Shown here piece after piece: positions 14,130-53,060 of a stretch of 64,000 nucleotides of DNA. A program made the translations under genes and the position numbers. Position 1 is the first letter of the stretch. Each line of letters starts with the position of its first letter. The notes beneath the pieces were generated by a model. That model saw nothing but the letters and a program-made list of their open reading frames with translations, searched no databases and was not told the DNA's origin. This DNA comes from a virus. The DNA lies in IMG/VR virus record IMGVR_UViG_3300027816_000052, positions 64,480 through 128,479 of that record. One strand, 5' to 3'.

Positions 14130-15950
14130 TTAAGATTGGTATCTTTTTAATATTTTGGATATTATAGGATTTCTGACAATATCTTCTTCGGTAAATTCAA
14201 ATAATCCGATTTCATCAATATTTTGTAATCTTTTCATTGCATCATATAAACCCGATTTTTCTAATTGTTTAAATTTATCAGATTGCTCAACATCACCAAT
14301 TATAAAGAATTTACTATTATGACCTATTCTTGTTAAAATAAGTTTCATTTCCGCAGGTGTACAGTTTTGACTTTCTTCAAGAAGTAAAATTGAATTTTCA
14401 ACCGAAATTCCGCGAATAAATGAAATTGACATAACTTCAATTATGTTAAAAAACTCTAATTTACCAGCAACACCTTCACCTAATATTTTATTTAATAAAT
14501 AAAATGATGCGTACATATATGGGTTCATTTTTTCTCGTTCATTTCCCGGAAGCGAACCTAACCTGCTTTCACCACCCTCTACGGCTGGTCGTATAATTAT
14601 AATTTTTTCATATGGTGTTGTGGGATCTAATATTAATTCTATTGCAGTTCTTAATGTGAGGTGTGAATTATGTGTAACTATAAAATTATCCGTTAAATAA
14701 AGACCTTTTTCTGAATTAACAGTAATACATTTAGCTTCTTTATTACCAATAAATTCAACATTTGTTATATATCGTTTTGGTAAATATCTACTTTTTGGTT
14801 TGACCAATTTTAATTTTCTTTTTAATCTAAAAGGAGTAATTTCGTTTGGTAAACAAATACATAATTCGTATGCTAATAATCCCATAATTTTTTCGCCTTC
14901 TTTATTTCTATAAAATGGTTGTTTTAACCATCTTTTAACAACACCACCTAAACTATTAACTAAAAAAACCATATCATCTGCTAATTTTTTAGATGTGGTT
15001 GTAAAAAATACTGAACCAGATTTTGAATCTACTGTACCGTCAGTATCCATTAGACCTTGTAATAGAGAAATTCTATTTTCAATCGAATTGAACATATATT
15101 CATAAGGTATAAATTTATTTTCACTTTTTTTATAAAGTAAATTTAATTGGTTTAGCTCATTCAAAAATTCGTTTTTCCCGTTCTCACCAATAATTGAATA
15201 TTTATATTTACCTTTTGGTTTGTTTAGGTGAATATTTTCTGGAATTAAAGCTTTTATGTTCTCAACAATTTCATTATCTGCACATGTAAACGTAATGTAT
15301 TGTGTTAATCCCCCATCACCAATAAGTACCCCCAATATATATGGGTCAATTAATAATTTTTGTTCATTAAATTGAACAGGTTTTGTAACTGGAATTGAAT
15401 GATTTTTATCACCTCTTTTTGTTGTTAATGTTTCTTTAATTTTTTTTAGTGTTTTAACACTATAATCTTTTGGTGAAGAAATTCTTTTATTTAATCTATT
15501 TTCACCGACTCGTTTTCTGGCATTTCTCTCATAATAAGTTTTTGTATACCATAAATGATCTTCACATGATTCGGTAAAAGTACCGTCATTAAATAATACT
15601 CTATAAATCGGCTTTTCCCCTTGTGGATGAACCGCAATAACCTCAACCGGGTTTCCATTTTCATCAATAACAAAATCTCCTACGACTATATCACCCATAT
15701 TAACCATTCCGGTGGGTGTAATTATTTTGGCATCAATTGGTTGTGCTTTTCCTGTACCAGCACTTCCTGAACAAATTGTAATTTCTTTTTCTTTTAAGAG
15801 TTGATAAAATTTTTTTTGGTTTTCGTTTAAAAATTTTTCTTTTGGTCTTTTTGTTATGATATTAGCAATTAAATCTTTCTTATTTATTTCCTTTGGTTCT
15901 TCAGGAACTTGATTTACCGTTTTTGGTTTTGCTTTTTGTTTTGCTGGCAT
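14130..15950 (-). CDS. phoH: PhoH-like ATPase interrupted by an intein
   Basis: The host protein is a PhoH-type P-loop ATPase. The Walker A GSAGTGK is at residues 62-68 and continues as SHLTLRTA after the intein at 429. Then come IIIIRPAVEGGESRLGSLPGNEREKMNPY (quoted as IIIIRPAVEGG and LGSLPG...NPY) and a Walker B SILLLEESQNCTPAEMK with FFIIGDVEQSD, all hallmarks of the family. The spliced protein would be 246 residues. PhoH proteins are common in phages and are proposed to act on RNA or in phosphate-stress metabolism, but the role is not settled. The gene has its own upstream motif at 15984 and ends at a strong terminator. Confidence 0.9.
   Translation of the reverse strand: MPAKQKAKPKTVNQVPEEPKEINKKDLIANIITKRPKEKFLNENQKKFYQLLKEKEITICSGSAGTGKAQPIDAKIITPTGMVNMGDIVVGDFVIDENGNPVEVIAVHPQGEKPIYRVLFNDGTFTESCEDHLWYTKTYYERNARKRVGENRLNKRISSPKDYSVKTLKKIKETLTTKRGDKNHSIPVTKPVQFNEQKLLIDPYILGVLIGDGGLTQYITFTCADNEIVENIKALIPENIHLNKPKGKYKYSIIGENGKNEFLNELNQLNLLYKKSENKFIPYEYMFNSIENRISLLQGLMDTDGTVDSKSGSVFFTTTSKKLADDMVFLVNSLGGVVKRWLKQPFYRNKEGEKIMGLLAYELCICLPNEITPFRLKRKLKLVKPKSRYLPKRYITNVEFIGNKEAKCITVNSEKGLYLTDNFIVTHNSHLTLRTAIELILDPTTPYEKIIIIRPAVEGGESRLGSLPGNEREKMNPYMYASFYLLNKILGEGVAGKLEFFNIIEVMSISFIRGISVENSILLLEESQNCTPAEMKLILTRIGHNSKFFIIGDVEQSDKFKQLEKSGLYDAMKRLQNIDEIGLFEFTEEDIVRNPIISKILKRYQS
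14667..15746 (-). other. Intein (class 2, Ala-1) with LAGLIDADG endonuclease
   Basis: A 360-residue in-frame insertion between K68 and S429 of the PhoH Walker A. It begins AQPIDAKIITPTG, an Ala at position 1 rather than Cys/Ser, and ends IVTHN followed by Ser as the +1 nucleophile, with the penultimate His and terminal Asn in place. The B block is CEDHLWYT-like (ESCEDHLWYT). Two dodecapeptides are visible, LGVLIGDGG and LQGLMDTDG, so the homing endonuclease is probably intact. Insertion at a nucleotide-binding loop is a typical site, since an empty allele cannot escape homing easily. Confidence 0.9.
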
Positions 15951-26659: not shown

Positions 26660-27421
26660 ATGAAAAAGATAAAATTAACAGAATCAGATTTATATAGAAT
26701 TGTTAGAAAGGTTCTTCTTGAGCAAGAGGAAGAAAAGAGAAGTTTTACATTTTCTCCGGGAACATTTGCGTCTTTTATAACATCATCATCAGGTGAAAGA
26801 TTTGTTAAACATCTTAATAACAAATATGATGAGGTTATTATTAATGGTGATTTGGATTTAGATGGAACACCAATTCAATCCTTACCTGATAATCTTCATG
26901 TTGGTGGGGATTTGAATTTATATGGAACACCAATTCAATCCTTACCGGATAATCTTTATGTTGGGAGAAATTTGGATTTAAGAGGAACACCAATTCAATC
27001 CTTACCGGATAATCTTTATGTTGGGAGAAATTTGGATTTACAAGGAACACCAATTCAATACTTACCGGATAATCTTCATGTTGGGGGAAGTTTGTGGTTA
27101 AATGGAACACCAATTCAATACTTACCGGATAATCTTCATGTTGAGGGAAGTTTGGATTTAAGAGGAACACCAATTCAATCCTTACCGGATAATCTTTATG
27201 TTGGGGGATATTTGAATTTACATGAAACACAAATTCAATCCTTACCGGATAATCTTTATGTTGGGGGATATTTGAATTTACATGAAACACAAATTCAATC
27301 CTTACCGGATAATCTTTATGTTGGGGGGACAATTTATATTAATGGAATACCTTTAAATGATAATGATAAGTTGGTTGCAAAATATAAAGAAAAATATAGA
27401 ATTGATAGAGCACTTATTTAA
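26660..27421 (+). CDS. LRR-like 20-residue repeat protein with shared leader, 253 aa
   Basis: Leader KKIKLTESDLYRIVRKVLLE|Q, then a conserved domain (FTFSPGTFASFITSSSGERF, about residues 30-65), then eight repeats of the form TPIQSLPDNLxVGGxLxLxG, then a capping segment. The repeat is 20 residues, exactly 60 bases, and resembles the leucine-rich-like repeats found in several large phages. The stacking LxLxxT ... LPxNL pattern predicts a solenoid that binds another protein or polymer. The gene stands alone behind its own promoter and converges with the virion block (8-base overlap). Two paralogues are in the window, at 2-655 and 51942. Partner unknown. Confidence 0.75.
   Translation: MKKIKLTESDLYRIVRKVLLEQEEEKRSFTFSPGTFASFITSSSGERFVKHLNNKYDEVIINGDLDLDGTPIQSLPDNLHVGGDLNLYGTPIQSLPDNLYVGRNLDLRGTPIQSLPDNLYVGRNLDLQGTPIQYLPDNLHVGGSLWLNGTPIQYLPDNLHVEGSLDLRGTPIQSLPDNLYVGGYLNLHETQIQSLPDNLYVGGYLNLHETQIQSLPDNLYVGGTIYINGIPLNDNDKLVAKYKEKYRIDRALI
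26864..27340 (+). repeat. Tandem 60-base repeats inside the LRR-like gene
   Basis: About eight copies in exact 60-base register, each coding for one 20-residue unit. Copies differ mainly at the codons for variable solenoid positions. Positions 27078-27196 (119 bases) are identical to 52840-52958. Confidence 0.85.
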
Positions 27422-40183: not shown

Positions 40184-41452
40184 ATGGCTAATAAAAAAAT
40201 TAGTAACTTACCTGAGTATAACACACCACAACCAAATGATGTGTTACCAATTGTTAATGTTGCTAATAGCGTAACACAAAAAGTACTATTTTCAGCAATT
40301 AGTCAAACAATAACATCAGGATTAGTTGATGTTTTTGTGACTGGTGGTACTTATTCAGCTGGAACAGCAACATTTATAAATAATACTGGCGGAACGTTTA
40401 GTGTTAGTGGCTTTACCGATAGTCAAGCAGGTTCCTCAGGAACATCAGGGACAAGTGGCTCATCTGGCTCTAGCGGAACATCAGGGATAAGCGGCTCTTC
40501 AGGAAGTTCTGGAACATCTGGTACAAGTGGTTCATCAGGAAGTTCTGGTACAAGTGGTTCATCTGGTAGTTCAGGAACATCTGGAACAAGTGGTTCATCA
40601 GGAAGTTCTGGTACAAGTGGTTCGTCAGGTTCTTCAGGAACAAGTGGTTCATCTGGTAGTTCAGGAACATCTGGAACAAGTGGTTCATCAGGAAGTTCTG
40701 GTACAAGTGGTTCGTCAGGAAGTTCTGGTACAAGTGGTTCGTCAGGTTCTTCAGGAACAAGTGGTTCATCAGGAAGTTCTGGTTCTTCAGGTACAAGTGG
40801 AATAAATGGTTCTTCTGGAACATCAGGAACAAGTGGTTCATCTGGTAGTTCAGGAACATCTGGAACAAGTGGTTCATCAGGAAGTTCTGGTACAAGTGGT
40901 TCATCAGGAAATTCTGGTTCTTCAGGAACAAGTGGTTCATCTGGTAGTTCAGGAACATCAGGAACAAGTGGTTCATCAGGAAGTTCTGGCACAAGTGGTT
41001 CGTCAGGTTCTTCAGGAACAAGTGGTTCATCTGGTAGTTCAGGAACATCTGGAACAAGTGGTTCATCAGGAAGTTCTGGTACAAGTGGTTCGTCAGGTTC
41101 TTCTGGTACAAGTGGTTCATCAGGAAGTTCTGGTTCTTCAGGTACAAGTGGAATAAATGGTTCTTCTGGAACATCTGGTACAAGTGGTTCTTCAGGAAGT
41201 TCTGGTACAAGTGGTTCATCAGGTTCTAGCGGAACATCTGGCACAAGTGGTTCTTCAGGAAGTTCAAGTGTTACTAATTTTCCGGTAACTTTTAATAATT
41301 CTGGAAGTGGAAATGCATCTGGGGTTAATTTTGATGGTTCTGTTGCACGAACTGTTAGTTTTAATACAATAGGTGCAAATAAAGTAATAACCTCTGGTAC
41401 CGCTGCTCCGACCGGAGGTAATGATGGAGACATCTATTTACAATTTACATAA
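40184..41452 (+). CDS. Gly-Ser-Thr repeat fibre protein, 422 aa
   Basis: A short N-terminal domain (KISNLPEYNTPQPNDVLPIVN, common at the start of phage structural proteins) is followed from residue ~85 to ~360 by an almost pure array of GTSGSSGSS-like units in nonapeptide register, and a C-terminal domain with FPVTFNNSGSGNASG and a GTAAPTGGNDGDIYLQF end, a phage-fibre tail motif. Unlike classical collagen-like fibres it has no Pro, but every third residue is Gly (GxS/GTS), so a triple helix or a polyglycine-II-type bundle is possible. Nearly every non-Gly residue is Ser or Thr, an ideal O-glycosylation substrate for the upstream enzymes (inference). Confidence 0.8.
   Translation: MANKKISNLPEYNTPQPNDVLPIVNVANSVTQKVLFSAISQTITSGLVDVFVTGGTYSAGTATFINNTGGTFSVSGFTDSQAGSSGTSGTSGSSGSSGTSGISGSSGSSGTSGTSGSSGSSGTSGSSGSSGTSGTSGSSGSSGTSGSSGSSGTSGSSGSSGTSGTSGSSGSSGTSGSSGSSGTSGSSGSSGTSGSSGSSGSSGTSGINGSSGTSGTSGSSGSSGTSGTSGSSGSSGTSGSSGNSGSSGTSGSSGSSGTSGTSGSSGSSGTSGSSGSSGTSGSSGSSGTSGTSGSSGSSGTSGSSGSSGTSGSSGSSGSSGTSGINGSSGTSGTSGSSGSSGTSGSSGSSGTSGTSGSSGSSSVTNFPVTFNNSGSGNASGVNFDGSVARTVSFNTIGANKVITSGTAAPTGGNDGDIYLQFT
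40430..41268 (+). repeat. Degenerate 27-base repeats coding for Gly-Ser-Thr units
   Basis: Repeats of ggttcatcaggaagttctgg-like units in register with nonapeptides. Blocks of several units recur, including two blocks around GGIN (GTSGINGSSGTS) near 40795 and 41152, showing duplication of a ~350-base segment. Confidence 0.85.
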
Positions 41453-47373: not shown

Positions 47374-48489
47374 TTAAATACTTAAAATAGGTACAGGGAA
47401 TGCGCGGAATTTTAATTCTTTATTCAAATTCTCCGCTACCTGTGCTGCTTTTTCCATCACTTTTTCGGGTCTTAATCTTTCCAATCTTAATTTAAGCTCT
47501 TCCTCTAATTTAGATTTTTCATCTTTAGCTTCAGTTAATAAACTCTGATAATCCATTGTTAATTCACTGTCTGGGGTCTTTAAATTACCACTAAATTTAC
47601 CTCTAACTCTACCACCTAAAACTTCTTTACAGTAAGCAACAAACCACCGTCTAACCCATTGTTGTGCTGGATTATTTAAATCACCCCAAGACAATTCCTC
47701 TAACGGAACATCTGAAGGTAATTTTACAATATCTGGATTAGCTTTTAAACAAGCGTCTCTATCAGCACCTTCGACTTCGTAATACCAATACCAAACTCTG
47801 AATCTATTAACCGTGGAATTACCAAAATCAAATCTACCGCCCGGAGTATTATATAAGTGAACTAATCTTTTACCGTCAGGCGCTGCGGTAATCCTATATG
47901 TTAAATCACCTTGGAAAAGTCTATTTTTAATGTTAATATCTTGTAGTCTCATTAGGATGTCAAATCCCGGAGTCATGAAGTAATTACCTACAGCCCCTAA
48001 TTGAGCATAACCACCGGGACCACCAAGACCGGGACCGCCCATAAATCCAAATGACCAAGGATCAAATAGAACGTTATTCATTTCTGCGGTAGTAAACCAA
48101 AGCAATTCATTTATTTCTCTACCAGCAGGAATTTCATAAATTTGTTGATTTTTAACCAAATCGAAATAGTCTTTCTTTAAAACACTATCACCACCAGCTT
48201 GTAATCCAACAATTTTAGAATATGCATAAGTATATTGCGTTTCATAATTCATGCTTCTGGTAATCAAAGCCTTAGCAACAGACTGTTGGTCCATATTTAA
48301 ACCAGCAAGAGTGGTCCACTGTGACTCAATCAACCAATCTTGTACATACTGAGAATAATCATTTATTGAGAATTCTAAAAAAGAATCCATCATTTCATCT
48401 TCTAATTCAACAGCACGAATTGGTGCTCCTAAAAGATGTCTAATTTTAGTATATAAACTACTTCTTTCTGGTTCTTGTATTATTGCCAT
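47374..48489 (-). CDS. 13: Neck protein, T4 gp13-like
   Basis: The N-terminal helix-strand LLGAPIRAVELEDEMMDSFLEF matches the LGAPI..VEL element of T4 gp13, and the C terminus WVRRWFVAYCKEVLGGRVRGKF ... LLTEAKDEKSKLEEEL matches gp13's W-V-x-x-Y-x-x-A-x-x-K/E-L-x-G ... EA-x-x-EK-x-x-L-x-E-E-L pattern (quoted in parts). gp13 seals the filled head and docks the tail. The frame is open to a TTG at 48510, but ATG 48489 is preferred because an ATATTTAT motif overlaps the TTG. 371 residues, longer than gp13's 309 because of a Gly-rich middle (GFMGGPGLGGPGG). Confidence 0.72.
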   Translation of the reverse strand: MAIIQEPERSSLYTKIRHLLGAPIRAVELEDEMMDSFLEFSINDYSQYVQDWLIESQWTTLAGLNMDQQSVAKALITRSMNYETQYTYAYSKIVGLQAGGDSVLKKDYFDLVKNQQIYEIPAGREINELLWFTTAEMNNVLFDPWSFGFMGGPGLGGPGGYAQLGAVGNYFMTPGFDILMRLQDINIKNRLFQGDLTYRITAAPDGKRLVHLYNTPGGRFDFGNSTVNRFRVWYWYYEVEGADRDACLKANPDIVKLPSDVPLEELSWGDLNNPAQQWVRRWFVAYCKEVLGGRVRGKFSGNLKTPDSELTMDYQSLLTEAKDEKSKLEEELKLRLERLRPEKVMEKAAQVAENLNKELKFRAFPVPILSI

Positions 48490-48530: not shown

Positions 48531-50060
48531 TTAATCTAAAATAAATAATAAGTCCTTATCTTTAAAGATACAAACGCCCTCATCAATTATTGTGTTAGCG
48601 TTTGAAAATACATATGTTTTTTTGTTTTTTTCAAAAATTAACCAATCGGTTTTGTATTTTTTTATTGAAGATGACGGTACTATTTTAATGGTATTATTTT
48701 CGGTTACAATTTCTTTAGCTGGTTTTATTTGCGCATTTGCCACCAATCCATTAAGCTTAACTTGCACATCAATTCCTCCGCGCATATCATCACTATTACC
48801 GTAACCAGAAATTTTTGCAACATTGTTTTCACCAAATCGTTTAATTAAAGCATCCACCACTAAATTTTCAATCGAATCCCCCTTTTTTGTTGTCTCTGAA
48901 AGAGCGGTAATTAATTTTTTAAATGTTTTGGACTCCTTACTAAAAATTCTATACTTAAATAAATCAATATGTTCCATTAAAGTGGAAATCTGTTTTTTTA
49001 ATTCTTCCTTATTTTGAGAATTATTAAGGAAATCAATAGAATCTTTACCATTGATTTCTAAGACTTTATTAATGTCTTCAGTCAAAATCTTTAATCCTAA
49101 AATGTTTGTGTTTAATTTATTAAGGACAGACCATCCCTTTTTCTCAACATCATAAACACCGTGTATATCATTTATTATTCTAAAATTTTCATTAAAAACT
49201 TCAGAGAGAACATTACCAATGAAAACTTTATAACCTTCAAATAATTCCTTATTTTTTTTATAAACTTCTAAGTAACTTCCGAAGTTTTCTCTACCATAAG
49301 ATTCTTCTAATATTTCAGAACTATTATTCATACTCTCTTTAATATTTTCATTTTGTTGATTTTCTAGTCGTTCATTAATATATTCCCAATTAACGACTCT
49401 CCAGAAATTTTCAATATACTTATCTTTCTGGTTTCTATAAGTAAGATAGTAAGCATGTTCCCATAAATCAAGTCCTAATAGGGGAAAACCGCCATTATCA
49501 ACAATACCCATCAACGGGTTGTCTTGATTAGGTGTGTTCATTATTTTTAATGTACCTCTTTTTGTTAAAACCAACCAAACCCATCCGGAACCAAAACGTT
49601 CTTTTGCGGAAGCTTCAAATTTTTTTCTAAATTCTTTTATTCCACCAAAATTTTTTTGAATTATTTTAAGAATTGGACCGCTAGCTTCTTGTTGTTTTGG
49701 AGATAACATCTTCCAAAAAATTGCATGATTATATGCTCCACCGGCATTATTTCTAATATCGGTGTTATATTGACTAATTGTTTTGACAATATGTTCTAAA
49801 TCATCCTCTTTTTTTCCGCTTTTTGTTAAAGCATCATTTAATTTATTAACATAACCAATATAATGTTTGTTATAATGGTAACTCATAGTTTCCGGGTCAA
49901 TAAATTTTTTTAGCGAGTCAAACTTATACGGTAACTTTTCAATTGGAATTTTACCTTTTACGTTTTTAACCTTTTTTTCTTCTCGAAGGTAACCCTTTTT
50001 CATTTCTACTCTGTAGATTTCTTCCTCCAATCTGTCAATTCTATTAATTAAATTTTTCAT
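48531..50060 (-). CDS. Fe/Mn superoxide dismutase fused to a nuclease-like C-terminal domain
   Basis: Residues ~40-225 are a Fe/Mn SOD with all four metal ligands: H62 (YHYNKH), H112 (AYNHAIFW), D198 and H202 (LDLWEHAYY), plus the usual GSGWVWLV. After a helical linker (~225-375), residues ~380-509 have GDSIENLVVDALIKRFG, GGIDVQVKLNGLVANAQIKPA and DWLIF, a PD-(D/E)xK-like layout with D ... Q-x-K. ATG 50060 is preferred over an upstream TTG. SOD domains occur in some large phages, but fusion to a possible nuclease is unusual. Located in a run with the neck gene. Confidence 0.8.
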   Translation of the reverse strand: MKNLINRIDRLEEEIYRVEMKKGYLREEKKVKNVKGKIPIEKLPYKFDSLKKFIDPETMSYHYNKHYIGYVNKLNDALTKSGKKEDDLEHIVKTISQYNTDIRNNAGGAYNHAIFWKMLSPKQQEASGPILKIIQKNFGGIKEFRKKFEASAKERFGSGWVWLVLTKRGTLKIMNTPNQDNPLMGIVDNGGFPLLGLDLWEHAYYLTYRNQKDKYIENFWRVVNWEYINERLENQQNENIKESMNNSSEILEESYGRENFGSYLEVYKKNKELFEGYKVFIGNVLSEVFNENFRIINDIHGVYDVEKKGWSVLNKLNTNILGLKILTEDINKVLEINGKDSIDFLNNSQNKEELKKQISTLMEHIDLFKYRIFSKESKTFKKLITALSETTKKGDSIENLVVDALIKRFGENNVAKISGYGNSDDMRGGIDVQVKLNGLVANAQIKPAKEIVTENNTIKIVPSSSIKKYKTDWLIFEKNKKTYVFSNANTIIDEGVCIFKDKDLLFILD

Positions 50061-50116: not shown

Positions 50117-51892
50117 TTATCTAGAATTATTAATGAAAGAAAGAATTTCTTCAACTGAATCAACTTCATTCATTCCATCTCCCATAACAGTTCTCACTAT
50201 TTGCTTTTTTCTATTTAGAATATCATAAATTTTACCTTCAATTGTATTTTCAAAAATTGGATAGTATACCAAAACTTTATTTTTCTGACCAAATCTATAC
50301 GCCCTATCTTCTGCTTGAGCATGATCTGCTGGGACAAAGGATAAATCGTTCATTACAACAACTTCCGCTGATGTTAACGTTAGTCCCACACCAGCAGCAA
50401 TAATCTGTCCAACAAAAATCATTGTTTTTTCATCGTTTTGAAACTTATCAACAGACTCTTGTTTTTGTTTCGAATTCATACTACCATCTAACTTAACCGC
50501 TTTATCACCAAAATGCTCATAAATTTTATTTAATGGTTCAATAAAGTTGGTAAATATTATTATTTTTTTTCCTTGTTCAAGGATATCTTCACAAAAATCA
50601 ATTGTTGACTGTATTTTTTCCAATGAAATTAATTTTCTAACTTTCATTAATTTTGTAAACTGTACGGTCAAAGACGATGATTCTTCTTTTTTATTATCAT
50701 ACCAATCATAATATTCACCCATAAAATTTTCATATTCTTTAGATTTTAATCTAAGATAGATTGGTGTAATAATTTTTTCAGGTAAATCTAAAATATCTTC
50801 TTTATGTCTACGTAAAATGTATTTTGAAGTCCTTTCTCTTAATTCATCTAAATTACTAGCGCCACTAACATTCCATATTTTTCTTTTTCCGGCTTTAAAT
50901 TGGAATCCATTACAGTATCGTTTAACATATGCCATCCAATTATTTGCAACAGGACAATCTATCAATTTTAATAAATTAAAATAATTAATCGGTCTAGACG
51001 TAATTGGGGTACCGGAAAGCAACCAAATTTTTTTTATTTTACCTGAAATAGCTAAAATAATTTTAGTTCGTATTGTTTGTGAATTTGCAATTTTATGCGC
51101 TTCATCAATAATACATAAATCAAAATTTGAAATTATTAATTCGGAATTTTCAGGATTATCCGAATCATAGAAATTCTTTAGAATATCATAATTTATTATT
51201 GTATACGTGACATCATCTTCAATCCAAATTTTACCATCAATTATTGCCACTTTATCATTAGTATATAATTCAATCTCTCGTTTCCAATTTATTTTTAATG
51301 ATGCTGGACAAATTATTAAAATTTTTTTTGCTTTAGACTCTAATGAAGCAATTATTGCTGATGTCGTTTTTCCAACACCCATCGAATCTGCTAAAATAAA
51401 TTTATCATTCTTTAATAACGTCTCAATTGCAATTTTTTGGTGCTCTAACGGTGGACGATGTGCATATTTTTCATAATCAACTTCAACCTTTACGTTACTT
51501 GTTTTTAAAATCGCTACTTTAGGTAACCAAATATCTGTAAGCTCTTCATTTTCAAAAAATTTACCCCAAATATGATAAGATGTATCTTTTTCAACCAAAA
51601 GTTTTTCAACATATATTTTTTCAGGAATTTGAATATACGCTTTATCATTTGCAAATTTTTTTGCAAAATATATATCCAAATCAACCCATTTTTTTGCAAC
51701 TTTTGGAACAATAGTTTCATAAGTAATAATATAATCTGCTTGAGTTCTGGTTGGATAAAATTTTTTATTTTTAAGGTATTTTTCCTTTAATTTTAAAATA
51801 AAATTATTCACCCCACGATATTCATCAAGGATTTTTAACGCTTTTTGTTCTGGTATGTTGTTTATATCAATCAAACAAGTAATAATAATCAA
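50117..51892 (-). CDS. SNF2-type DNA translocase/helicase
   Basis: Motif I LADSMGVGKTTSAI (~190), Ia ILIICPASLKINWKRE, II LCIIDEAHKI (DEAH), III WLLSGTPIT, V GLTLTSAEVVVMND and VI AQAEDRAYRFGQKNKV, the SNF2 family's signature Q-A-x-x-R-x-x-R-x-G-Q. It is closest to SMARCAL1/HARP-like single-domain enzymes, which anneal or remodel forked DNA; it could fill the role of T4 UvsW. The frame has no ATG near its start, only TTG at 51892 directly after a stop codon (or TTG 51874), so a TTG start is likely. Confidence 0.85.
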   Translation of the reverse strand: MIIITCLIDINNIPEQKALKILDEYRGVNNFILKLKEKYLKNKKFYPTRTQADYIITYETIVPKVAKKWVDLDIYFAKKFANDKAYIQIPEKIYVEKLLVEKDTSYHIWGKFFENEELTDIWLPKVAILKTSNVKVEVDYEKYAHRPPLEHQKIAIETLLKNDKFILADSMGVGKTTSAIIASLESKAKKILIICPASLKINWKREIELYTNDKVAIIDGKIWIEDDVTYTIINYDILKNFYDSDNPENSELIISNFDLCIIDEAHKIANSQTIRTKIILAISGKIKKIWLLSGTPITSRPINYFNLLKLIDCPVANNWMAYVKRYCNGFQFKAGKRKIWNVSGASNLDELRERTSKYILRRHKEDILDLPEKIITPIYLRLKSKEYENFMGEYYDWYDNKKEESSSLTVQFTKLMKVRKLISLEKIQSTIDFCEDILEQGKKIIIFTNFIEPLNKIYEHFGDKAVKLDGSMNSKQKQESVDKFQNDEKTMIFVGQIIAAGVGLTLTSAEVVVMNDLSFVPADHAQAEDRAYRFGQKNKVLVYYPIFENTIEGKIYDILNRKKQIVRTVMGDGMNEVDSVEEILSFINNSR

Positions 51893-51941: not shown

Positions 51942-53060
51942 ATGAAAAAGATAAAATTAACAGAATCAGATTTATATAGGATAATTAAACAAGTTCTTTT
52001 TGAACAGGAGGAAGAAAAGAGAAGTTTTACATTTTCTCCGGGAGCATTTGCATCTTTTATAACATCATCATCAGGTGAAAGATTTGTTAAACATCTTAAT
52101 AACAAATATGATGAGATTGTTGTTAATGGGGGTTTGGATTTACAAGGAACACCAATTCAATCCTTACCGGATAATCTTAAAGTTGGGGGATGGTTGGATT
52201 TACGAGGAACACCAATTCAATCCTTACCGGATAATCTTCATGTTGGGGGAAATTTGGAGTTAGATGAAACACAAATTCAATCCTTACCGGATAATCTTTA
52301 TGTTGGGGGAAATTTGGAGTTAGATGGAATACCAATTCAATACTTAGGGAATAATATTCATGTTAAGGGAAATTTGGAGTTAGATGGAATACCAATTCAA
52401 TACTTAGGGAATAATATTCATGTTGGGGGAAATTTGTATTTATATGGAACACAAATTCAATCCTTAGGGGATAATCTTCATGTTGGGGGAAATTTGGATT
52501 TATATGGAACACCAATTCAATCCTTACCGGATAATCTTCGTGTTGGGGGATGGTTGGATTTAAAAAGAGCACCAATTCAATCCTTACCGGATAATCTTCA
52601 TGTTGGGGGAGATTTGTTTTTAAGTAAAACACCAATTCAATCCTTACCGAATAATCTTCATGTTGGGGGAAGTTTGTATTTACAAGGAACACCAATTCAA
52701 TCCTTACCGGATAATCTTTATGTTGGGAGAAATTTGGATTTAAGAGGAACACCAATTCAATCCTTACCGGATAATCTTCGTGTTGGGGGAGATTTGTGGT
52801 TAAATGGAACACCAATTAAATCCTTAGGGGATAATCTTTATGTTGGGGGAAGTTTGTGGTTAAATGGAACACCAATTCAATACTTACCGGATAATCTTCA
52901 TGTTGAGGGAAGTTTGGATTTAAGAGGAACACCAATTCAATCCTTACCGGATAATCTTCATGTTCCAAAAATTATTTTAATTAAAACCACGCCATTAAGT
53001 GATAATTATGAATTGGTTCAGACATATAGTGAAAAATATAAAATTAATAGTACTTTTTAA
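51942..53060 (+). CDS. LRR-like 20-residue repeat protein with shared leader, 372 aa
   Basis: Same plan as the 26660 gene: leader KKIKLTESDLYRIIKQVLFE|Q, the FTFSPGAFASFITSSSGERF domain, then fourteen 20-residue repeats instead of eight, and a closely similar cap. Repeats 4-6 and 12 have LGNN or LGDN in place of LPDN, showing local divergence. Part of the array (52840-52958) is identical to 27078-27196. It may be an internal head protein if the leader is a capsid-targeting peptide. It precedes the gp14- and gp15-like genes by 9 bases and could share their transcript. Confidence 0.75.
   Translation: MKKIKLTESDLYRIIKQVLFEQEEEKRSFTFSPGAFASFITSSSGERFVKHLNNKYDEIVVNGGLDLQGTPIQSLPDNLKVGGWLDLRGTPIQSLPDNLHVGGNLELDETQIQSLPDNLYVGGNLELDGIPIQYLGNNIHVKGNLELDGIPIQYLGNNIHVGGNLYLYGTQIQSLGDNLHVGGNLDLYGTPIQSLPDNLRVGGWLDLKRAPIQSLPDNLHVGGDLFLSKTPIQSLPNNLHVGGSLYLQGTPIQSLPDNLYVGRNLDLRGTPIQSLPDNLRVGGDLWLNGTPIKSLGDNLYVGGSLWLNGTPIQYLPDNLHVEGSLDLRGTPIQSLPDNLHVPKIILIKTTPLSDNYELVQTYSEKYKINSTF
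52130..52965 (+). repeat. Tandem 60-base repeats inside the second LRR-like gene
   Basis: Fourteen units in exact 60-base register. 119 bases (52840-52958) are identical to the array at 27078-27196, 25 kb away, whereas flanking units differ. Confidence 0.85.

Follow-up and report, generated by a model that had tools for sequence, protein, structure and literature searches.

A large aquatic bacteriophage encodes a superoxide dismutase (SOD) and a nuclease-fold domain in one long protein. The gene is located in a virus record of 256,029 bases that also encodes a gp23-type capsid protein and a gp21-type prohead protease; the stretch of this record analysed here, 64,000 nucleotides in length, is referred to as the window. 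Each of the two domains is preceded by a conserved (I/L)-x-E sequence, the cut motif of T4-type prohead proteases, and we treat both as candidate cleavage sites. On balance, we favour the reading that the protein is a precursor made of a head-targeting peptide, a SOD and a nuclease, which would be loaded into the prohead and cleaved there, both enzymes then being injected. The single chain with two activities is probably not the final form.

Results

A SOD and a PD-(D/E)xK fold in one open reading frame

The open reading frame occupies positions 48531-50060, where an earlier note on this DNA had placed it, and is read from the minus strand (Table 1). A SOD and a nuclease fold had been proposed for this one ORF, and both are supported, the former by Pfam and the latter by a structure model.

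Pfam places Sod_Fe_N at residues 41-120 (E 3.7e-21) and Sod_Fe_C at residues 127-231 (E 1.2e-37), the two SOD domains scoring 128.5 and 75.8 bits, over the Pfam cut-offs. The earlier note had described a full SOD with H62, H112, D198 and H202; this numbering is right, and the four metal ligands do not vary in any of the 22 full-length representatives or, in a wider set (n = 53), in any of the 43 representatives with letters in the SOD. The nearest solved structure to this half is 6gsc (E 2.5e-59), and its TPNQDNPL stretch is presumably of the Mn type. SOD matches were found in 29 phage records, all inside query residues 22-245 and none extending past residue 245. Likewise, two SOD-based patterns searched against genome contigs retrieved 21 bacterial SODs, none of them matching past residue 245.

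The C-terminal part is not recognized by sequence comparison: residues 375-509 have no Pfam match at E<=1, and the module has no convincing PHROG match and no match among PDB chain sequences at E<=10, results that leave membership of the PD-(D/E)xK superfamily possible. Weak mid-region Pfam matches to DUF2400 and Strumpellin fell below the cut-offs and were attributed to chance, as was a PADLOC match of one relative (E 3.8e-4, 18.5 bits), PADLOC returning nothing for the window protein itself. General Pfam and NCBIfam searches of the window protein gave no ArdC-N, DarA-N or DdrB-like ParB among their matches.

Residues 240-509 were modelled by AlphaFold2 with 22 aligned relatives (mean pLDDT 84.9, pTM 0.70). 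The top Foldseek match in the PDB was the PD-(D/E)xK homing endonuclease I-Ssp6803I (E 1.1e-3, prob 1.00), followed by Hjc resolvases, with no PDB match at E<=0.001. In the VIA comparison, about residues 390-509 aligned with A. fulgidus Hjc (Z 8.4, rmsd 3.5, 102 aligned) and I-Ssp6803I (Z 7.9, rmsd 2.9, 99 aligned), scores that are borderline alone, while many PD-(D/E)xK rows agree and the top rows belong to one superfamily. SPARDA chains (Z 8.1) and TSEN are also among the VIA matches. E398, D431, Q444, K446 and P447 are invariant in all 50 representatives with a letter at these positions, and are included in the 28 invariant columns of the 248 in the module alignment. As modelled, the last ~120 residues adopt a PD-(D/E)xK nuclease fold, and nuclease activity may be expected of them. 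The region with D...Q-x-K previously read as PD-(D/E)xK-like is thus borne out by a model of the tail whose top Foldseek and VIA matches are families of this superfamily; neither a tail without nuclease fold nor relatives without the acidic or Lys residues were seen, and the Gln is kept as well. In SPARDA, a QxK set (D41, Q60, K62) is catalytic in the DREN nuclease, which its authors liken to I-Ssp6803I (PMC12205087).

Table 1. Position of the fusion gene, its parts and its two neighbours in the window.
Feature	Position in window	Strand	Basis or content
Complete ORF, 509 aa + stop	48531..50060	(-)	peptide, SOD, linker, nuclease-fold module
Residues 1-27: predicted helix, candidate capsid-targeting propeptide, ending in L25-R-E27	49980..50060	(-)	
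L25-R26-E27: candidate first prohead-protease site	49980..49988	(-)	alignment and motif conservation
Residues 37-232: Fe/Mn superoxide dismutase; ligands H62, H112, D198, H202	49365..49952	(-)	
Residues 233-257: linker, mostly predicted disorder	49290..49364	(-)	pLDDT
I250-L251-E252: candidate second prohead-protease site, SOD/nuclease boundary	49305..49313	(-)	alignment and conservation
Residues 258-509: nuclease module, helical part followed by PD-(D/E)xK core	48534..49289	(-)	
Residues 390-509: PD-(D/E)xK core with E398, D431, Q444-x-K446	48534..48893	(-)	
SNF2-type helicase, upstream neighbour, defines the gene slot	50117..51892	(-)	Pfam SNF2-rel_dom, E 1.5e-26
Head-tail-adaptor-like protein, downstream neighbour	47374..48489 (ATG start; TTG-start form to 48510)	(-)	phrog_211, E 1.1e-10

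Two conserved motifs lie in the two low-confidence segments

Residues 2-28 form a helix in the full-length model. In this model pLDDT falls below 50 in only two segments of at least three residues, 21-35 and 237-257, which contain the two motifs; in the tail model it does so at positions 1-15, corresponding to residues 240-254. At site 1, [IL]xE is present in 34 of 36 representatives (shuffle mean 11.5, maximum 21 in 2,000 trials), and at site 2 in 37 of 40 anchored representatives (shuffle mean 12.1, maximum 23 in 2,000 trials). The shuffles rearranged the letters of representatives less than 90% identical, relatedness being ignored. From the 53 representatives at 90%, 17 were dropped at site 1 for want of the KLPY anchor and 13 at site 2 for want of the Cys anchor; the window protein is among these 13, having Tyr255 at the anchor position, yet it has I250-L-E252. 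The two misses at site 1 are the window protein itself, in which a 7-residue insert shifts the motif upstream, and L152, whose GTG-started frame has LTE. The misses at site 2 are L020, a fusion without this site, L167 and L168.

The residues following the putative cuts are M, A, E, S, G and Q, whereas the T4 prohead cut is followed by a tighter set, A, G or S. The N-terminal peptide of the fusion is also unlike the ITESxL-type N-termini of the same phage. T4 has internal proteins with N-terminal targeting peptides that are removed by gp21 (PMC9958956) and the protein Alt, cut by gp21 at ITE-6 and LTE-619 (PMC5694885). The protease of a distant giant phage cleaves after AxE (PMC10052503).

A prohead protease and a modest genome-wide motif signal

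The phage encodes a prohead protease of PF03420 (78.8 bits), a family also found in 7 of the 12 relatives' records searched, which are mostly fragments. In its gp23-type capsid protein, L-I-N-E precedes AAST about 60 residues from the N-terminus, and by this sequence the protein would be cut at I-N-E. Across predicted proteins of at least 100 residues, [IL]xE[AQGS] is 1.8-fold commoner in the first 40 residues than later (36 of 8,440 against 137 of 57,445 positions; P 0.003 after paralogue collapse), while six control motifs gave 0.76-1.12 times in the same test. This genome-wide N-terminal enrichment is modest.

Ten predicted proteins of the phage share the N-terminal sequence MKKIKLTESDL..I...LLEQ (window 26660-27421 (+), window 51942-53060 (+) and eight ORFs in L052-L060), followed in several of them by repeats of the DLxGTPIQSLPDNLxVGG type. 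These proteins are candidates for a head-packaged family.

Other features of the phage and its relatives were noted by eye or by position. A P-loop protein at window 14130-15950 (-) is PhoH-like by eye, its GxGKS region apparently interrupted by an intein-like insert. The 1,046-aa protein at L054:12559-15699, directly upstream of the head genes, is portal-like by position and has an intein-like stretch, seen by eye, beginning ACIDLNTRIPLLDGR. At window 40184-41452 (+), a protein made mostly of GTSGSSG repeats has a collagen-like look.

One gene slot with both enzymes or either one

A single-sequence scan of IMG/VR viral contigs returned 47 whole-protein relatives: 39 full-length fusions, four with SOD only, one split and three ended by a contig edge. 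The full-length relatives are 43-48% identical to the window protein, except L002, which is identical. An assembly artefact or a chance fusion is ruled out by the full frame in 39 of the 47. A helicase homologue lies upstream in all 47 and an adaptor homologue downstream in 42, the five remaining contigs stopping before it.

A profile scan with the module found at least 316 relatives, of which 80 loci were retained for analysis, 53 with SOD and 27 without. The same helicase and adaptor flank all 15 SOD-less loci examined among the 27. In 13 of the 27, a 294-aa form runs from a fusion-like N-terminal helix-like stretch directly into LSE-S and then the nuclease; two hold a 298-aa form, and in the adaptor tree one of these, L177, adjoins the fusion L174. 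When starts are taken at the first ATG only, helix and motif are both missing from the 271-aa forms (3 of 27) and from one of the 278-aa forms (4 of 27); the other 278-aa form (5 of 27) carries LTE without a clear helix. A clear helix is thus seen in none of the twelve 271/278-aa forms, and the motif is also absent from seven of them. SOD-only forms occur in L043, L044, L045 and L050. One gene slot of related phages is therefore occupied by SOD and nuclease, by nuclease alone, or by SOD alone.

The distribution of these states on an adaptor tree requires at least six state changes (shuffled mean 15.9), gain and loss being indistinguishable because the root is arbitrary. The tree has 74 distinct rows, drawn from those 114 of the 126 loci whose match was long enough, L048 being excluded; where they occur in it, L038 and L040, which are cut by contig ends, and the split L041 count as fusions. 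Either half is repeatedly missing at the slot, so neither depends on the other.

Some loci showed further variation. The fusion at L041:5001-6538 is split into frames of 340 and 177 aa overlapping by a few codons, which may be a frame break, a sequencing error or a real split. A 218-aa ORF, HNH-like by eye (HIDHIIPLS), lies between helicase and fusion gene at L008:4130-4786. An extra ORF of 360-380 aa with no Pfam match separates module gene and adaptor at L007:6529-7671 and L199:3865-4947; that of L007 starts MKIIITEEQY, resembling the other ITE-type N-termini of the phage.

Beyond this slot, single-sequence and profile searches of the window's own record for a second module copy gave only the self match at E<=10. 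The module was absent at E<=0.001 from 395 Bacteroidota genomes and one Sphingobacterium genome, a weak negative made without a known-positive bacterial control. In tblastn against 50,697 phage records the tail gave nothing at E<=1, and the adaptor had no match among phage records. A SOD-less relative used as query matched only one 735-kb uncultured phage (two records), which carries a distant solo nuclease module with D...QCK (L250, LR756501.1, 3186-4115) but no clear targeting peptide and no obvious motif. In BFVD, the best match (E 1.7e-22) was a 501-aa uncultured-phage protein bearing no name beyond superoxide dismutase, and the next was an uncharacterised protein of 1,113 aa from a marine phage; the fusion is thus apparently already public under a SOD name, its tail undescribed there.

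The module on other carriers

Near the fusion, on the opposite strand, a protein of ~500 aa joins an L5-gp82-type domain (PF25735, E 3.5e-29) to the module. Such a carrier is found close to the slot in five loci (L013, L020, L021, L024 and L039). All 11 distinct readable linkers of gp82-type carriers hold [IL]xE, with S as the next residue in eight, A in two and N in one; this is a raw count from the 13 distinct sequences of 18 loci (L067-L084). Tailless gp82 forms of 177-182 aa, seen among the 22 loci examined of the 33 in L067-L099, stop just before the linker. Judged from sequence, a carrier unrelated to the SOD fusion thus has the same module after an (I/L)xE motif.

The 582-aa protein at L084:2950-4698 reads peptide-LTE-nuclease-ITE-zinc ribbon-HEIRH, and its gene adjoins that of a ClpB/ClpA-type AAA protein. 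By its motif, and with no Pfam match, HEIRH may mark a possible metalloprotease. The zinc ribbon, CDKCGWSW, occurs on many different phage proteins (carriers L085-L137). In 28 of 32 distinct segments, [IL]xE precedes the first Cys of the ribbon by exactly 11 residues (shuffle mean 12.5, maximum 22), a fixed spacing that could also belong to the zinc-ribbon fold.

Discussion

Sequence data and models support the SOD, the nuclease fold with its invariant E-D-QxK, the two motifs, the protease gene and the presence or absence of each half. In the packaged precursor that we favour, the ~27 N-terminal residues would form a helix that directs the chain into the core of the prohead. After completion of the head shell, the gp21-type prohead protease would cleave after L25-R-E27 and I250-L-E252, and these two cuts would remove the peptide and free the Fe/Mn superoxide dismutase from the PD-(D/E)xK nuclease. 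Both enzymes would enter the host with the phage DNA, where the SOD may lower superoxide as infection starts and the nuclease may process DNA or attack nucleic acid of the host or of competitors. Several observations argue against this reading: the upstream neighbour is a helicase and not a head gene; some short nuclease-only forms lack the peptide, seven of them lacking the motif as well; the copy in the 735-kb phage has no evident peptide or motif; the fusion L020 is without site 2; the N-terminal peptide is unlike the other N-termini of the phage; the residues after the putative cuts are looser than in T4; and the genome-wide motif enrichment is modest.

The earlier note had suggested that a single chain might link protection against oxidative burst with DNA processing or defence. 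Both domains are indeed on one ORF, but the proposed link is weakened by the cut-type motif in the low-confidence boundary and by the occurrence of each half singly. Because the boundary motif lies in a very-low-confidence segment and each half is found alone at the slot, the two enzymes are more likely delivered together than mechanistically coupled.

An uncut bifunctional enzyme acting in the infected cell, in which the SOD would keep superoxide away from a DNA-processing complex, one formed with the adjacent helicase for example, during the action of the nuclease, would agree with the intact frame in 39 of 47 relatives and with the SNF2 helicase upstream in all of them. We regard it as rather unlikely, given the conserved [IL]xE in the very-low-confidence linker, the repeated loss of either half at the slot along the adaptor tree and the presence of the same module on an unrelated carrier. 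The enzymes could also be ordinary post-infection accessory proteins; [IL]xE would then have nothing to do with head assembly and represent helix caps or features of the linker. This fits the short nuclease-only forms that have neither peptide nor motif, and also the SODs of Pseudomonas phage MIJ3 and Vibrio phage 2.275.O, which are single-domain annotated genes with no adjoining annotated head genes in the stretches seen. However, [IL]xE is conserved in specific columns amid variable surroundings, at two sites and on a second carrier, and the tailless gp82 forms stop right before the linker, so that we consider this explanation unlikely.

It is improbable, in our view, that the module, while retaining its nuclease fold, has RNA as its substrate or serves chiefly to inhibit or bind restriction proteins of the host, in the manner of the injected T4 proteins Ip2 and Ip3. 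In favour of such a role, PD-(D/E)xK folds include tRNA-splicing enzymes, TSEN being among the VIA rows, and type IV restriction enzymes are inhibited by injected T4 proteins (PMC12373910). Against it stands the E-D-Q-K set: it is invariant in all 50 representatives with letters there, which is what one expects of a catalyst and not of a protein that only binds.

The packaged precursor resembles the T4 internal head proteins and Alt in its short N-terminal peptide ending in (I/L)xE and in the gp21-type protease of the same genome, but differs from them in having two enzymes in one chain with a motif between, and in that its packaging is something we infer. T4 is not known to have a SOD or nuclease of such sort. 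The second motif is paralleled by the second cut of Alt, LTE-619 (PMC5694885). The polyvalent proteins of phages and conjugative elements likewise bring several effector domains in one packaged or injected chain, some of them proteolytically processed (PMC5512222); the word superoxide is absent from the main text of that study, and the boundaries here hold no autoprotease domain but prohead-protease-type motifs. The chlorovirus PBCV-1 packages a SOD in its virion that enters with the particle and is thought to lower early superoxide (PMC7019647); this enzyme is of the Cu/Zn type, belongs to a eukaryotic virus and has no nuclease partner. The two provide precedents for multi-domain injected proteins and for a packaged viral SOD. 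The stand-alone Fe/Mn SODs of MIJ3 and 2.275.O are of the same family and from large phages, but are single-domain. I-Ssp6803I, the SPARDA DREN and Hjc share the PD-(D/E)xK fold, and DREN also D...QxK; they differ in having other partners and no known phage-head delivery, and none was matched among PDB sequences at the threshold above.

In titles and abstracts of the open-licence literature searched on phage and viral SOD and on capsid-targeting sequences, no description of a phage SOD-nuclease fusion was found. Phage SODs, packaged or injected phage effectors and prohead processing are already known, and the fusion is present unremarked in public data; what is new, relative to the literature searched, is a SOD-nuclease architecture that is conserved, has protease-type separators and is gained and lost at one slot. 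More tentatively, and with somewhat less confidence than we give to the fusion as a packaged precursor, this phage group may build injectable multi-enzyme precursors in which prohead-protease sites serve as separators and modules are gained or lost at them, the modules being SOD, nuclease, the L5-gp82-type domain, the zinc ribbon and a possible HExxH protease.

If the packaged-precursor reading is true, one targeting peptide would load several unlinked enzymes into the phage head, and the SOD would act in the first seconds of phage infection, as proposed for a chlorovirus. The natural series found at the slot, with both enzymes, nuclease only or SOD only, lets the contribution of each be probed, and (I/L)xE would be a simple motif for spotting other injected proteins in uncultivated phages.
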